Positions 20,279 through 29,539 of a stretch of 64,000 bases of DNA are shown here, piece by piece. Both the position numbers and the translations under genes were made by a program. The DNA comes from an uncultured Caulobacterales bacterium (GTDB taxonomy: Bacteria > Pseudomonadota > Alphaproteobacteria > Caulobacterales > Maricaulaceae), in assembly GCA_937928165.1 (NCBI GenBank), contig CALFVT010000002.1:1-64000 (forward strand), written 5' to 3'. How positions within the stretch are numbered: the first letter of the stretch is position 1; every line of letters begins with the position of its first letter. The notes beneath the pieces were generated by a model. It was not told the DNA's origin. It saw nothing but the letters and a program-made list of their open reading frames with translations, and searched no databases.

Positions 20279-21448
20279 ATGAGCACAACACTTTTAAATA
20301 ATCCAGCCCCCGCCTTTGATGCCCCCCGAGACGCAGGCGGGAAAATCATGCTCGTCGGGCTGGGGCGTGCGGCGGTAAGCCATCATCTTGAGACCTTTGG
20401 GGTAGAGCCAAAAAAGCTGCGTATGCGCACGAATCAAATCTGGAATTGGATTTACCATTGGGGGGTGCGTGATTTCTCTGAGATGAAAAATATCGCCAAG
20501 CCTTTGCGTGAAAAACTTGCGGCTCACTTCTCTCTCGCACGCCCCGAAATTATCGAGCGCCAAGTCAGTGTTGACGGCACGCGGAAATATCTCATCCGCA
20601 TGGGGCCGGGCATTGAAGTGGAAAGCGTATTTATTCCCGACGTATCAAAAACTGGTGCGCTTTGTGTGTCCTCCCAAGTGGGCTGTACATTGACCTGTAA
20701 ATTTTGCCATACGGGCACGCAGAAACTCGTGCGCAACCTCACCCCGCGCGAGATTGTTCTGCAAGTCGTTGCCGCGCTAGATGATCTGGGTGAATGGCCG
20801 AGCGGGAAGGAGAACCGCAAGCTGACTAATATTGTGTTTATGGGCATGGGCGAGCCGCTTTATAATACGGATTATGTCGGCGATGCGCTGGATACGATTT
20901 GTTCCGATGACGGGCTGATGATCGGGCGGCGGCGCATTACGGTTTCGACCTCGGGCGTCGTGCCAGAGATCGTGCCCCTCGGGGAGCGCACCTCGGCTAT
21001 GCTCGCGATTTCGCTCCACGCGGCCAATGATGAGCTGCGGGAGCAGATCATGCCAATTAACCGCAAATACCCCCTCGCCGCCCTCAAAGAGGCTTGCCTG
21101 AATTATCCGGGGCTATCCAATGCGCGGCGGATTACCTTTGAATATGTGATGCTCAAGGGGGTGAATGATAGTAATAAACACGCCAAGCAGCTTATTCGTT
21201 TCCTTGAAGGCATTCCCGCCAAAGTCAACCTCATCCCGTTTAACCCCTGGCCCGGCAGCCCCTATGAATGTTCCGATTGGGAGCGTATTGAAGACTTCGC
21301 CGATATCGTCAACCGCGCCGGCTATGCCGCCCCCATCCGAACCCCAAGAGGCCGCGACATCCTCGCCGCCTGCGGACAGCTAAAGTCCGAATCCGAAAAA
21401 ATGCGCGCGAGTGAACGGCGGAAGCTGGAGGGTGAGCGTGGGGGTTAG
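20279..21448 (+). CDS. rlmN: 23S rRNA (adenine-2503-C2)-methyltransferase RlmN
   Basis: A 389-residue radical-SAM enzyme. The Fe-S cysteines are in [12 protein letters not shown] (CxxxCxxC), and the methyl-carrying cysteine is in [12 protein letters not shown] near the C-terminus. It methylates C2 of A2503 in 23S rRNA and A37 of some tRNAs. The start at 20279 agrees with the usual length; an ORF from 20120 would overlap the preceding ubiH-like gene by 79 nt. The reverse-transcriptase island begins 93 nt downstream on the opposite strand. Confidence 0.94.
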
Positions 21449-21541
21449 GCGAAGTGGCCAGTTTCGTTTTTAGAGAGCTTTGTTAAAAGGTTCATAAGCC
21501 TGTACTATGGGGGCAAAGCGTACCTTAAAAACTCACTAAAG

Positions 21542-23059
21542 TTATCCGCGCTTGCTAAATTGCAACCTAATTTGATGCTCTAAACTTTGTTGAATCAAGT
21601 TTTCAATTCCTCGGAGTTGCAGGAAAAGTTTTCCACTCTTCTTGCCAAATACTTTTTTTGCTCGTCTAATATAGCTCCAAAACGTCATAACTTTAAATGC
21701 AGCCCCTTCTTGTTCTAACGCCTCGCGAACAGAATCTTCAAAGTCTTCAACATTCATAAATTCTGTTTTGACAGCATTTATAGGGCTTTTTTCAAGGAGC
21801 CAACTCAGGTTTTTTTCTCTGTGTCCGCGCACATGAACATAAGCTGCATTGATACAAGCTTTTATCACTTTTCGCCGTAGATTAGATAATGTGCTATTTT
21901 TAATGAATGCATTTGAACCATCATATCTAAAACCAAGATAAGACAAGCCCTCATTTACTGAACATCGCTTTCGAAGTTTAGCATTCTCAACTACTACCAA
22001 GGAATAGCACCGCTGTTTGCCAGTTGGCTGTCCAGTGTAACAAACGATTTCTGTTTTCGAAGGTTTTATTTTTAGATGTTCTCCAGATTTTTTAATTATC
22101 CGAGAGATAGTTTTTTCGGCTCCACAAGCGGCACGACCATCACCTGGAAGAATTAGTAAGATATCGTCAGAATACCGGAAGTAATACCCGCCCCTTTTAT
22201 GAGCATAATTATTCATGTATATGTCAAAATCTAATAAGTACATATTAGCCAATAAATCAGAAATAGGGGTGCCTTGAGGGATGCCATAAGGTTTTTCTCG
22301 TTTTTTAACCAAACCAGAATCGACAATTTTCTTACGGAAATCATTAGGTGAACAAAGCTGTATCGGGATTTTTTTGGGATTAATTTTGTAACGAAGTTTT
22401 TTGGATACGGAATCATATTCAGAATACCCGAGTGCAACCAAAGCATCATCCATATGTACATACCTGTAATTTACTATCGATTTGAAAACTGCCTTATGGT
22501 CATTAGGCAATTTTTCAGTACCTAAAATTCGATTCCAAATGCGTTTCACATTTTTATCTTCTAGCGAACCAAAAAAGTCAGATATATCTACAGCAATAGC
22601 ACAACACTTACCCAGTCGATCTATGCAGTCGAAAGCGTCTTTAGCAAAATAAATATTATTCTTATTAGTGTTTTTCCCAACGGTTACAGGAATTTTTCTG
22701 TAAGCGAGAACGCAATTCTCTAAACCCTTTTCATGCAACTTTGCTTCGTAAAGGTTTGATAAAATCGTACGATAATATTTGTAGATATAAGCATCTTTTC
22801 GACAAGCATACCGTATTGGCCTAATTTTTGGTTCACGTTTTTTACCATTTTTGGGTGGCCGTCGCCATTTTTGTTCGAAATGTAAAAGAGGTCGAAAGGG
22901 ATGATGTGTGACATACTCAGGGTTACCTATAATGGTAGCGATGTCTTCTAAATCTAACTCCGAGTCAAAATGACGATACTTTTTAAGATCGGAAAGCTTA
23001 GGCTGCCAAATTAAATTGGCGGTGTTAGGGAAAGCAGAATCACTAGTGGTTTCGCTCAA
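21542..23059 (-). CDS. Defence-type reverse transcriptase (DRT/UG class, possibly DRT2-like)
   Basis: A 505-residue reverse transcriptase with all palm motifs: motif A AVDISDFF (D158), motif B IPQGTPISDLLAN (260-272), catalytic YSDD at 296-299, a motif D lysine (KIKPSKTEIV), and YLGF at 374-377. A helical C-terminal domain of about 120 residues replaces any maturase, so it is not a group II intron. I see no retron VTG motif. The N-terminal set IRYA-KDAYIY, VLAYRKIP, NIYFAKDAF resembles the UG2/DRT2 antiphage family from memory; treat that subclass as tentative. The start is TTG, with GGGGAAG 6 nt upstream, and no in-frame ATG fits. It is clearly AT-richer than rlmN on its left and is preceded by a likely ncRNA. 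Confidence 0.82.
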   Translation of the reverse strand: MSETTSDSAFPNTANLIWQPKLSDLKKYRHFDSELDLEDIATIIGNPEYVTHHPFRPLLHFEQKWRRPPKNGKKREPKIRPIRYACRKDAYIYKYYRTILSNLYEAKLHEKGLENCVLAYRKIPVTVGKNTNKNNIYFAKDAFDCIDRLGKCCAIAVDISDFFGSLEDKNVKRIWNRILGTEKLPNDHKAVFKSIVNYRYVHMDDALVALGYSEYDSVSKKLRYKINPKKIPIQLCSPNDFRKKIVDSGLVKKREKPYGIPQGTPISDLLANMYLLDFDIYMNNYAHKRGGYYFRYSDDILLILPGDGRAACGAEKTISRIIKKSGEHLKIKPSKTEIVCYTGQPTGKQRCYSLVVVENAKLRKRCSVNEGLSYLGFRYDGSNAFIKNSTLSNLRRKVIKACINAAYVHVRGHREKNLSWLLEKSPINAVKTEFMNVEDFEDSVREALEQEGAAFKVMTFWSYIRRAKKVFGKKSGKLFLQLRGIENLIQQSLEHQIRLQFSKRG

Positions 23060-23106
23060 GCTCTACTTCCCCATTCAACGACCGTGGATGTTAATCCAAA
23101 CCACAA

Positions 23107-23117
23107 GGTAAACGTTA
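23107..23117. repeat. Direct repeat GGTAAACGTTA, copy A
   Basis: An 11-bp direct repeat, here extended to GGTAAACGTTATGTG. The second copy starts exactly 269 nt further on, at 23376. Both lie inside the candidate RNA upstream of the reverse transcriptase. Confidence 0.7.
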
Positions 23118-23375
23118 TGTGCTATACTGTCATAATGCTAATACGCTTAAAGCGTTCATCATCAAGAAGTCATCAAATCATCAAGGAGCTTTCACTCATG
23201 ATAAATCTGAATTTGTCCATTGACAGATTTAACCATTGACTACTTCGGCATGCATAAAGCACCCTCATAGAAATCATATATGGTTAATGTAAATTAAGGT
23301 TTCAAGGGATGAGGTGCAGAAATATAAAATGCGTCAAAATAACTACATTTTCCCGAAATAAATATCCGTTATGTG

Positions 23376-23386
23376 GGTAAACGTTA
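23376..23386. repeat. Direct repeat GGTAAACGTTA, copy B
   Basis: Second copy of the 11-bp repeat. It is immediately preceded by CGTTATGTG (23367-23375), which in copy A follows and overlaps the repeat (23113-23121). The two ends therefore share the same words in permuted order. Confidence 0.7.
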
Positions 23387-23409
23387 CAAAACCCTAGCGC
23401 TTCTACCCC

Positions 23410-24624
23410 CTACTCCCGTGCATAATGCGCCGATAGGCCGCGGTAAAATTCCATCGCGAGGAGGCCGTGGGAGATGCCGTCTTTATTGACTTCGGAGGCG
23501 TCTTTGAAGGTTGAGAGTTTGACAATCACTGTCCCATGGTCGGGATTGACATAGATATGTTGGCCGTAGAATCCGGCGGCGGTGAAGTCATTTTGAAAAT
23601 CGGGCTCTGGCCGTTTCATCGGCACCCACCATTGATAGCCGTAACCAAGCTTGCCGCCTTCCAGCGGCGGCGGGGCGGAGCGGGCGGTGCTTTCACGCAC
23701 CCAGTCTTGGGAAATAATCTGTGTCCCGTTCCAGTCACCGCCCTGCAGGAAAAGCTGCCCGAGAAGCGCATAATCGCGGGCGCTCATGTTAAGCCCGCCG
23801 AGCACATATTCACTGCCCACGCTGTCGGTGATATAGTGAATGCCTTGGCTAAAGCCGAGATGGGTTCCCAAGACCCGCTCGAAATTCTCTGACGCGCTTT
23901 GGCCCGTCGCCCCTTTGAGCACCATGCCGAGCGCGTGGGTATCAATGGAGACATAGCGCATAAACTCGCCCGGCTCGAAATCCCGCGCTTTATAGCGGGT
24001 GGTAAATTCATCCAGCGAGCCGCTGACCGCCAGAAGATAGGTCATCTTGCTCACGTCGCTATTGCTATCGAAATAATCTTCATTAAAGCGCACACCGCTC
24101 GACATGTTTAAAACATCCCGAATAGATGTACCTTCATAGGCCGTGCCTTTAAGGGCGGGGGCATAGCGCTCCATTGGATCGCTCACGCTTTGGATGTCGC
24201 CCCGATCAATCGCTGCGCCGATGAGGGCCGAGAGAAAGCTTTTGGCGACCGACCATGAAATACGGTGGTCTTCGGGCTTGGCCCCTTGGTAATAATCCTC
24301 AAAACGAACAATACCGTCTTTAATAACTAAGAGGGCCACAGCATCAGTGCCCGTCATATAATCAGCTACGGCAACGTCTTGCCCTAGAATATCGACTTTT
24401 TCAGGTAGCGGCGTTATGTTCTTTTGCCATATATGCAGCGGGGCGGTGACGGCTAGATCGCGGCGGTGAAAGGCCTCTCCGGCATGGGCGAAATTATTCA
24501 CCACGCGGTCAGGGGCGAGAAAGTCTTTGACCATCATAAGCCGCTGTAGATTGTTCCAATTCGCCGCTAGCAGCCCGCCGCCAATCAGCGCCGCCGCGCC
24601 AAGGCCGATCCATATTTTTCGCAT
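23410..24624 (-). CDS. Serine hydrolase of the class C beta-lactamase fold
   Basis: A 404-residue protein with an N-terminal hydrophobic segment (WIGLGAAALIGGGLLAAN) that is a signal or anchor. The catalytic SxxK motif is SWSVAKSFLSALIGAA near residue 130. The second motif YVSIDTHALG and the KLGYGYQWW region fit the beta-lactamase/6-aminohexanoate-dimer hydrolase family. The substrate is unknown, and such enzymes act as esterases, peptidases or amidases. The start at 24624 is preferred to 24630 because a GGG lies 6 nt upstream. A perfect palindrome stands just before it. It follows the reverse-transcriptase island on the same strand. Confidence 0.85.
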   Translation of the reverse strand: MRKIWIGLGAAALIGGGLLAANWNNLQRLMMVKDFLAPDRVVNNFAHAGEAFHRRDLAVTAPLHIWQKNITPLPEKVDILGQDVAVADYMTGTDAVALLVIKDGIVRFEDYYQGAKPEDHRISWSVAKSFLSALIGAAIDRGDIQSVSDPMERYAPALKGTAYEGTSIRDVLNMSSGVRFNEDYFDSNSDVSKMTYLLAVSGSLDEFTTRYKARDFEPGEFMRYVSIDTHALGMVLKGATGQSASENFERVLGTHLGFSQGIHYITDSVGSEYVLGGLNMSARDYALLGQLFLQGGDWNGTQIISQDWVRESTARSAPPPLEGGKLGYGYQWWVPMKRPEPDFQNDFTAAGFYGQHIYVNPDHGTVIVKLSTFKDASEVNKDGISHGLLAMEFYRGLSAHYARE

Positions 24625-28213: not shown

Positions 28214-29539
28214 TTATGCGCTTAGAATTTCATCAATGTCACTTTGCGTAAGATGTGGGAGTAAATTAAATGGCTCAACCTGCTCATTTTGGGCTAAGGC
28301 TCGATAAATATTTAATAGTTTCGACTTTTGAGCTGTCCATTTATATGGGGGTTTCAACGAAATATGAGGCCGGGTCTCTGTTAAGAAAGATTTCATATTT
28401 TCAAAAGCCTGAACAATCGCCTCTGTTTGATAGTTTTTAGCAATCACCCCGCATTTAGACATGCGCACAAATTTTTCGACCTCAGGCAAGGGCGTCACTA
28501 AAACAGGAAGCCCCGCATCAACAGATTCAAAGAGTTTATTCGGCAAGGCATATTTATATGACAAACAGCTCGGCTGAATAGCGATTATAGAGAAGTCAAA
28601 TATCGTTATCTTTTCTTTTAACTGATGATGCGCAACAGGCTCTAAAAATTTTATTTGGTCTAATACACCACAGAATAATGCAAGACTGCGTAAATGATCT
28701 ATATAGTCTTGCGAGCCTTTTCCAATGATCGTGATGTTTACGTCGGGCGCTTTTGATAAAGCCGATATGACCTGTTCATATCCCCGACTCGGCTGCACCG
28801 CGCCAATACAAACTGCTGAAATTTTATCATTTTTATTTTTTACACGGCCCAACCTTGGCTGGACTTGAGCCGAATTCTCTGGCGTATTCAAAATAACGGC
28901 AGGTTTTTTTATTTTATAATCTTGCTTTAATTGAGCCGCAATCGTTTCTGAGACTGTTAAAACATAATCCACAGCCTTTATCGCTCGGCCTTCACACCGG
29001 CGGTGAAGCCATTTAACAGGTAAGGGCGCCGCAAGGTTACGGCTATTTTCATATTCATGTGAATCATATATAATTTTGCAGTCAATCTCTTTAGCAAGCC
29101 GAACACCCGCCGCCAAAGTTGATAGATCATTCGCATGGATAATATCCGGACTAAAGTCTGACACCGGCGCAATCAATGCCTCATAACTTATCTTCGGCCA
29201 TAGCCAGGCTCCGGCAAGCAGTTTATACCAAGCTTGCTGCGCAGACTGTGCTGATGGCGGCGGCGAGGAAGCAACAGCCGGCTTAGGTGTTGATAAGGCC
29301 GCGCGAGGCTGTGAAGGAACAAAGTGCGCCTTAAGTGAAACTTTCCTGCGAAAATAACCGCTGCCGTCATGAAAACATAAGTTATAATCAGGGCTTGGCG
29401 GTAAAGACTGTGAATGTTTGACCTTATCAACAACGCAAAATATACGCGGTTCATAACCGCCGCTTTTTAAGGCGCTTAATAAACGGCTGACCCGTGAGTC
29501 CATATGGCCCGGATGATCGAGTAAAATGGCAACCCGCAA
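28214..29539 (-). CDS. Glycosyltransferase family 4 protein
   Basis: A 441-residue GT-B glycosyltransferase. The N-terminal half has the usual first domain (VAILLDHPGHMDSRVSRLLSAL), and IIHANDLSTLAAGVRLA lies near residue 135. The C-terminal half has the GT4 nucleotide-sugar region, with KYALPNKLFESVDAGLPVLVT as the conserved E-x7-E-like segment. The sugar and acceptor cannot be read. The start is a TTG at 29539, with no better in-frame ATG upstream and no clear ribosome-binding site. It belongs to the polysaccharide locus and is downstream of the wbp-like operon on the same strand. Confidence 0.82.
   Translation of the reverse strand: MRVAILLDHPGHMDSRVSRLLSALKSGGYEPRIFCVVDKVKHSQSLPPSPDYNLCFHDGSGYFRRKVSLKAHFVPSQPRAALSTPKPAVASSPPPSAQSAQQAWYKLLAGAWLWPKISYEALIAPVSDFSPDIIHANDLSTLAAGVRLAKEIDCKIIYDSHEYENSRNLAAPLPVKWLHRRCEGRAIKAVDYVLTVSETIAAQLKQDYKIKKPAVILNTPENSAQVQPRLGRVKNKNDKISAVCIGAVQPSRGYEQVISALSKAPDVNITIIGKGSQDYIDHLRSLALFCGVLDQIKFLEPVAHHQLKEKITIFDFSIIAIQPSCLSYKYALPNKLFESVDAGLPVLVTPLPEVEKFVRMSKCGVIAKNYQTEAIVQAFENMKSFLTETRPHISLKPPYKWTAQKSKLLNIYRALAQNEQVEPFNLLPHLTQSDIDEILSA

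Follow-up and report, generated by a model that had tools for sequence, protein, structure and literature searches.

A DRT2-type reverse transcriptase locus from an uncultured Caulobacterales bacterium, with a predicted neo gene that would exist only in repeated copies of its upstream RNA

The DRT2 system of Klebsiella (KpnDRT2) makes repeated copies of a 120-nt template; the junctions between the copies unite a -35 with a -10 element, and the antisense strand carries a frame without stop codons (PMC12039810, PMC11100668). Here, we analysed a stretch of 64,000 nucleotides from an uncultured bacterium of the Caulobacterales (GenBank assembly GCA_937928165.1, contig CALFVT010000002.1, positions 1 to 64,000 of the forward strand), referred to below as the window, and focused on one reverse transcriptase (RT) gene and the RNA predicted upstream of it. 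We consider it highly probable that they form a DRT2 (UG2) anti-phage system, in which rolling-circle reverse transcription would build a neo gene whose product arrests phage-infected cells. The identity and fold of the RT, the conservation of the RNA, the promoter, the geometry of the Shine-Dalgarno (SD) sequence, ATG and frame, and the homology at the junction are supported by the analysis presented here.

The RT gene is a single open frame, and its product carries the motifs AVDISDFF (with D158), GIPQGTPISD and RYSDD. The residues D158, D298 and D299 were invariant in 35 aligned sequences, window included, in agreement with an initial annotation of this DNA that had called the RT complete and catalytically intact. 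The same annotation had tentatively compared the protein with UG2/DRT2, and this resemblance was supported by profile, sequence and fold. Among the PADLOC profiles, Drt2 scored highest (PDLC03757, 413 bits; PDLC02173, 293 bits), and the next family was RT_UG17 at 69 bits. The best match in NCBIfam was also Drt2 (NF041746, 337 bits), while the group II intron and retron models gave at most about 55 bits, and no Rfam match at E ≤ 1 was found within 21000-24000; a group II intron or a retron RT, named at the outset as the result that would speak against a defence-type RT, was thus rejected. By phmmer, the best sequence in the PDB was KpnDRT2 (9c0i, 214 bits). An AlphaFold2 model of the RT, built from the 35 aligned sequences, had a mean predicted local distance difference test (pLDDT) score of 88.4 and matched 9c0i with Z 34.2 and a root-mean-square deviation of 2.8, with 413 of the 425 residues of 9c0i aligned to model residues 16-495. 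The second-best chain reached Z 23.0, and many other RTs fell at Z 15-23 (VIA-align), as expected from the common RT fold. The fold of KpnDRT2, including its extended thumb, is present in the model, and the RT is a DRT2 (UG2) in the broad sense, outside the Klebsiella subclade.

DRT9, which is UG28, also has an RNA partner, and it appeared as a lower-ranked match to the window RT both by PADLOC profile (43.6 bits) and by fold (Z 16.6). A DRT9-type system, in which the RT would copy a U-tract of the RNA into poly-dA, nevertheless has a negligible probability here, given the far higher Drt2 scores and the fact that the longest run of U in the RNA (23022-23268) is 3. With no poly-U template present, identity with DRT9 was rejected.

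The predicted neo unit and its signals lie on the plus strand, opposite the RNA (Table 1). The combination TTGACA-17-TATACT arises only across a repeat junction; on the chromosome the -35 box lies downstream of the -10 box, and the promoter would therefore exist only in a concatemer.

Relatives were collected by one contig scan, in which 84 were confirmed and the best 80 of the 84 kept, giving 78 distinct loci. By their record titles, these loci are mostly from Alphaproteobacteria, and the closest RTs among them are those of loci L048 (55%) and L042 (51%). In the relatives the upstream regions share one layout: after a first hairpin come the left element CTGTCAAG, the variable template and the right element ACAGTATA, and a long hairpin at the 3′ end stands just before the RT. 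Both elements were found in 81 of 87 RT loci, window included, by a loose pattern that also admits distant loci. In an RNAalifold analysis of 34 loci, seven of the eight predicted pairs of the 3′ hairpin, or tower, showed changes on both sides, and the plain MAFFT alignment of the 3′ region of these loci gave no consensus structure besides the tower. A per-locus hairpin search returned 52 distinct towers, in which more than one standard pair type occurs at each position; this search picks the best 11-bp hairpin of a locus, so the pairing is partly by construction, the registers vary by a base or two, and the entries of at least three loci (L057, L058 and L074) look like other hairpins. The upstream region is thus conserved, and a conserved RNA with a decodable neo unit also fits the earlier proposal that it serves as the template, with expression and copying presumed.

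In the window itself, a 270-nt stretch folded with an energy below that of its shuffles (z -2.4), only 4 of the 200 shuffled versions folding equally well. The initial annotation had described at least four perfect stem-loops, which was an overstatement, as an inverted-repeat search found five pairs of which only two are perfect. Its placement of a structured RNA upstream of the RT stands; however, the RNA appears to extend to about 23022, inside the RT frame, and 23270-23400 would be promoter and intergenic sequence. No open reading frame (ORF) of at least 60 aa lies wholly within 23060-23409, in line with the claim that this stretch holds no plausible gene. A CTTGAN motif, as in the tentative RNA promoter of the window, was present at the equivalent place in 30 of the 61 loci, a count that stands without a chance estimate.

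The neo frame was then counted in a set of 61 loci, window included. Twenty loci had been dropped before the count: nine too distant or poorly matched, five with a plainly misplaced right element, and six near-duplicates. With the two promoter boxes at spacing 17, 55 of the 61 loci were in phase with an open antisense frame. The number rose to 57 after the right elements of L060 and L067 were moved by 2 nt, by hand and after both had been seen out of phase, on the ground of their deviant distance to the conserved GTCG. An open frame on the sense strand was found in 29 of 61 loci, and mononucleotide shuffles gave a mean of 20.8 and a maximum of 31 open loci of 61; when only the interiors were shuffled and the junction parts kept fixed, the mean was 17 and the maximum 29 of 57. 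Across the 57 in-phase loci the neo frame contained no stop in 1777 interior codons, whereas the remaining antisense frames had 19 and 91 and the sense frames 27, 106 and 51. An SD sequence (GGAG/GAGG or better) followed by ATG occurred in the neo frame of 38 of these loci, in the other antisense frames of none (0 and 0), and in the three sense frames of 4, 0 and 0. Any start codon with an SD of at least 4 nt was found in the neo frame of 53 of the 57, with none in L044, L055, L071 and L102. The units measure 117-150 nt in the 57 loci, and 96 to 168 nt in a few loci anchored by hand. The templates are diverse but not independent, as they form 28 clusters by shared 5-mers, of which 24 are wholly open and the largest holds 27 loci. 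Of the five loci set aside for a misplaced right element, four (L106, L083, L087 and L107) were open in the neo frame once re-anchored by hand, L107 having mismatched junction letters; the fifth, L090, is without a left flank, and in L094, one of the nine distant loci, the element was not found when tried.

The two ends of the template also share sequence. They are identical at positions -8/+10 in 56 of 61 loci and at -7/+11 in 60 of 61. When spacings from 12 to 23 were scanned, 17 was the only one at which a pair of neighbouring positions matched in at least 56 of 61 loci; no other spacing exceeded 33, and this two-base identity is what singles out 17 among the spacings of the right phase. 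The common letters are GU in most loci and CU at both ends in five, which come from Rhizobium, Agrobacterium, Brucella and Devosia records; this covariation of the ends may reflect one or a few events. Mismatched ends were seen as GU versus AU in three loci and CU versus GU in one.

A maximum-likelihood RT tree of 45 rows, rooted at the midpoint, placed the window together with L048, L042 and L043 in a set of four rows (support 100/99). This set sits inside a 35-row clade (100/100), apart from KpnDRT2, which falls in its own five-row group (100/95); the fork joining that group to the 35-row clade has support 89/80. Membership in the Klebsiella subclade was rejected on this separate placement and on the motifs ACA-1/ACA-2 of that subclade, present at the corresponding template ends in 0 of 61 loci. 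A single protein query found no match in viral contigs, and an alignment query found one, L120, an IMG/VR contig of 49.9 kb that carries a branch member with 39% identity to the window RT. Given this occurrence in a viral collection, the DRT2 branch may travel on phage or prophage. Two further branch members, L049 and L085, are on contigs labelled Solirubrobacterales and Acidicapsa (Acidobacteriaceae), which suggests either transfer beyond Proteobacteria or a mislabelled bin. In L047, L076, L092 and L101, the matched RT stretch has one internal stop, possibly by decay or assembly error, and L076 and L101 keep an open neo frame all the same.

Several results weigh against the assignment of the locus to a DRT2 system with a neo gene. 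The NCBIfam score of the RT lies under the Drt2 cut-off of 390 bits, and the Klebsiella ACA motif is missing from the corresponding places. The window by itself provides weak statistics, since 15% of its shuffled units are open, or 12.5% with the junction fixed. Spacings of 8, 11 and 14 open as many loci as 17 does, the other two phases opening 1 to 3, so the frame test fixes the phase and not the exact junction. Four loci (L042, L043, L046 and L116) are out of phase at spacing 17; L042 and L046 are open at other spacings (L042, for example, at 16), whereas no spacing between 9 and 25 opens L043 or L116, and in the four-row set of the window L048 alone joins the window in keeping phase at 17. 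One other frame is closed by the -35 box itself. Counts by codon position gave no third-position excess in the neo frame (428/641/613 in the largest group), so that purifying selection on the amino acids of Neo was not seen.

The last two of these results, together with the four out-of-phase loci, two of them in the subclade of the window, would also suit an RT that makes concatemers whose product acts as DNA, as a sink or a signal, with the open frame as a by-product of selection for promoter or structure. We regard such a DNA product as improbable, because the 1777 interior codons counted in the neo frame are free of stops, the unit length is divisible by three in 57 of the 61 loci and stays in phase over its whole range in these 57, and among the antisense frames only the neo frame has an SD with ATG. 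A neo gene that is translated from the concatemer remains the reading we favour.

The called start codon of the RT, TTG at 23057-23059, lies within the loop of the tower. No further in-frame ATG, GTG or TTG occurs within the 321 nt after it, and the nearest alternative start is an ATT codon 48 nt downstream. Residues 1-14 of the RT model have pLDDT below 50, and the true start is accordingly unsure. Among 13 chosen loci for which the codons were listed, L048 shows the same start-in-loop arrangement, and so do L056, L062 and L084, three distant loci of the Rhizobiaceae. A single transcript may be put to either of two uses, as the RNA or as the message for the RT. We give about even chances to a broader proposal, namely that a second, mostly alphaproteobacterial branch of DRT2 assembles its neo genes through jumps on the two bases GU (or CU) and not on ACA, and that in several members, the window among them, the RT start in the 3′ hairpin loop makes a transcript either template RNA or RT message, not both.

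The RT stands alone between rlmN (RlmN_N and Radical_SAM domains) and a hydrolase of the beta-lactamase family (PF00144), in what had rightly been described as an AT-rich island next to a serine hydrolase: the G+C content (GC) is 37% both in the RT gene and across 21449-23409, and about 46-56% in the flanking 1-kb blocks on either side. Matches to the RT were obtained in 8 of 99 related genomes searched, one being the window's own genome and seven giving weak matches to the RT core (best E 4.2e-8); the 98 other genomes thus contained no near relative of the RT, and no near-identical island was available for comparison. In the hydrolase loci of 11 relatives, which extend no further than about 1.5 kb on either side, rlmN was not found, and no empty insertion site could be demonstrated. 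The low GC and the lack of a close RT relative make a recent gain likely. A recent gain, and an unusual TTG start within an RNA hairpin, could also belong to a decaying DRT2 whose RT is intact but whose system has fallen silent in this host. We see little probability in such decay, as the catalytic residues, the 120-nt phase, the promoter spacing and the SD-ATG pair are all kept together, and the TTG start in the loop recurs in L048, L056, L062 and L084. Elsewhere in the window, 28000-51000 is a broad region of low GC (39-48%) with long ORFs, possibly a surface polysaccharide cluster, and its ORF at 28214-29539 resembles a glycosyltransferase by eye.

Table 1. Observed and predicted features of the RT locus (window positions)
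Feature	Position	Strand	Basis
RT of DRT2 type, 505 aa counted from the called TTG; catalytic motif YSDD	21542..23059	-	profile, fold, alignment
Non-coding RNA, ~247 nt, approximate ends, covers first RT codons	23022..23268	-	conservation with relatives, fold z -2.4; ends inferred
Tentative RNA promoter: CTTGAA 23301-23306 and CATATATG 23275-23282	23275..23306	-	inferred
5′ handle hairpin, GGGUGC-loop-GCAUGCC	23247..23264	-	pairing by eye, window and two close relatives
GAAGUAGU, right after the 5′ handle hairpin	23239-23246	-	
Left junction homology GUU, 5′ end of template	23231..23233	-	
Predicted neo unit of 120 bp, giving 40 stopless codons per repeat in a head-to-tail array; templated by the minus-strand RNA	23113..23232	+	
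Predicted -35 box TTGACA, end of unit; conserved as TGTCAA in RNA	23220..23225	+	
Predicted neo ATG, reads MINLNLSIDRFNVMCYTVIMLIRLKRSSSRSHQIIKELSL, then repeats without end	23198..23200	+	
Predicted neo ribosome binding site AAGGAG, 9 nt before ATG	23183..23188	+	
Predicted -10 box TATACT, start of unit; conserved as AGTATA in RNA	23123..23128	+	
Right junction homology GUU, 3′ end of template	23111..23113	-	
Short hairpin UGGAU-UAAC-AUCCA, possible 'buttress' counterpart	23085..23098	-	window fold; visual inspection of close relatives
3′ hairpin ('tower') with a stem of 11 bp, loop 23039-23061	23028..23072	-	compensatory changes

By analogy with the Klebsiella system, we propose the following course of events. 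The locus would yield one structured RNA and the RT, which would grip the RNA through its 5′ hairpin and 3′ tower and copy the minus-strand template from 23232 to 23113 repeatedly into concatemeric complementary DNA (cDNA). The head-to-tail junction of the 120-bp cDNA would read ..GATTTAAC/GTTATGTGC.., where the slash marks the junction. In a double-stranded concatemer, each junction would place TTGACA and TATACT 17 bp apart, and this promoter would drive an mRNA with AAGGAG-ATG and a stopless frame of 40 codons per repeat, from which a repetitive Neo protein could halt the growth of the phage-infected cell. The formation of the ribonucleoprotein, template jumping, second-strand synthesis, the phage trigger and toxicity are taken from the Klebsiella work, and the RNA ends, the processing and the DNA primer are assumed to be as in Klebsiella DRT2.

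The Tang preprint notes that annotation of Neo was harder in more divergent DRT2 clades, possibly with other mechanisms (PMC11100668), and the parts of the DRT2 literature that were covered gave no account of neo genes in the present clade. A branch apart from KpnDRT2 provides a clear prediction from sequence alone: the same principle with another junction. Promoter, start and frame of a putative neo gene can be predicted in the window and in dozens of related loci, and the 57 Neo proteins predicted in this way, from units 117 to 150 nt long, can now be read. The differing junctions offer a natural comparison of jump sites that bears on how the RT finds the end of its template. The prediction from sequence also suggests a general search route, in which circular stopless frames behind junction-split promoters would point to genes that exist only after reverse transcription.

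The closest described system is KpnDRT2 (PDB 9c0i; Wilkinson 2024, PMC12039810; Tang 2024 preprint, PMC11100668), with which the window locus shares a lone RT of the same fold, an upstream RNA with a 5′ hairpin, a template and a 3′ tower, and a 120-nt unit with -35 and -10 boxes united only at the junction, an SD, an ATG and a stopless antisense frame; the two RNAs were compared by layout and not by alignment of their sequences. The window locus differs in that its RT is longer (505 vs 425 aa, with the thumb region kept) and falls under the NCBIfam Drt2 cut-off, the template ends of its branch share GU and not ACA, and the loop of the tower contains the start codon of the RT. The plasmid-borne Drt2 of Photobacterium damselae (L122, 52% identity to KpnDRT2) resembles it in having TGTCAA/ATTATA at spacing 17 and an in-phase open unit of 111 nt, which came out of a trial of several pairs of elements and several spacings and is weak by itself, but it belongs to the Klebsiella side of the tree. 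Among such Klebsiella-type controls, a loose scan gave an open unit at one spacing in L122 and L124 and no element pair in L123, and the plasmid collection held no record of at least 60% identity to KpnDRT2. DRT9 and DRT10 (UG17) are similar in that their RTs have an RNA partner and carry out repetitive DNA synthesis, as stated in PMC12632851. In contrast to DRT9, the window RNA has no U-tract, and in contrast to DRT10, the window RT matches the Drt2 profile with 413 bits against 69 for UG17.
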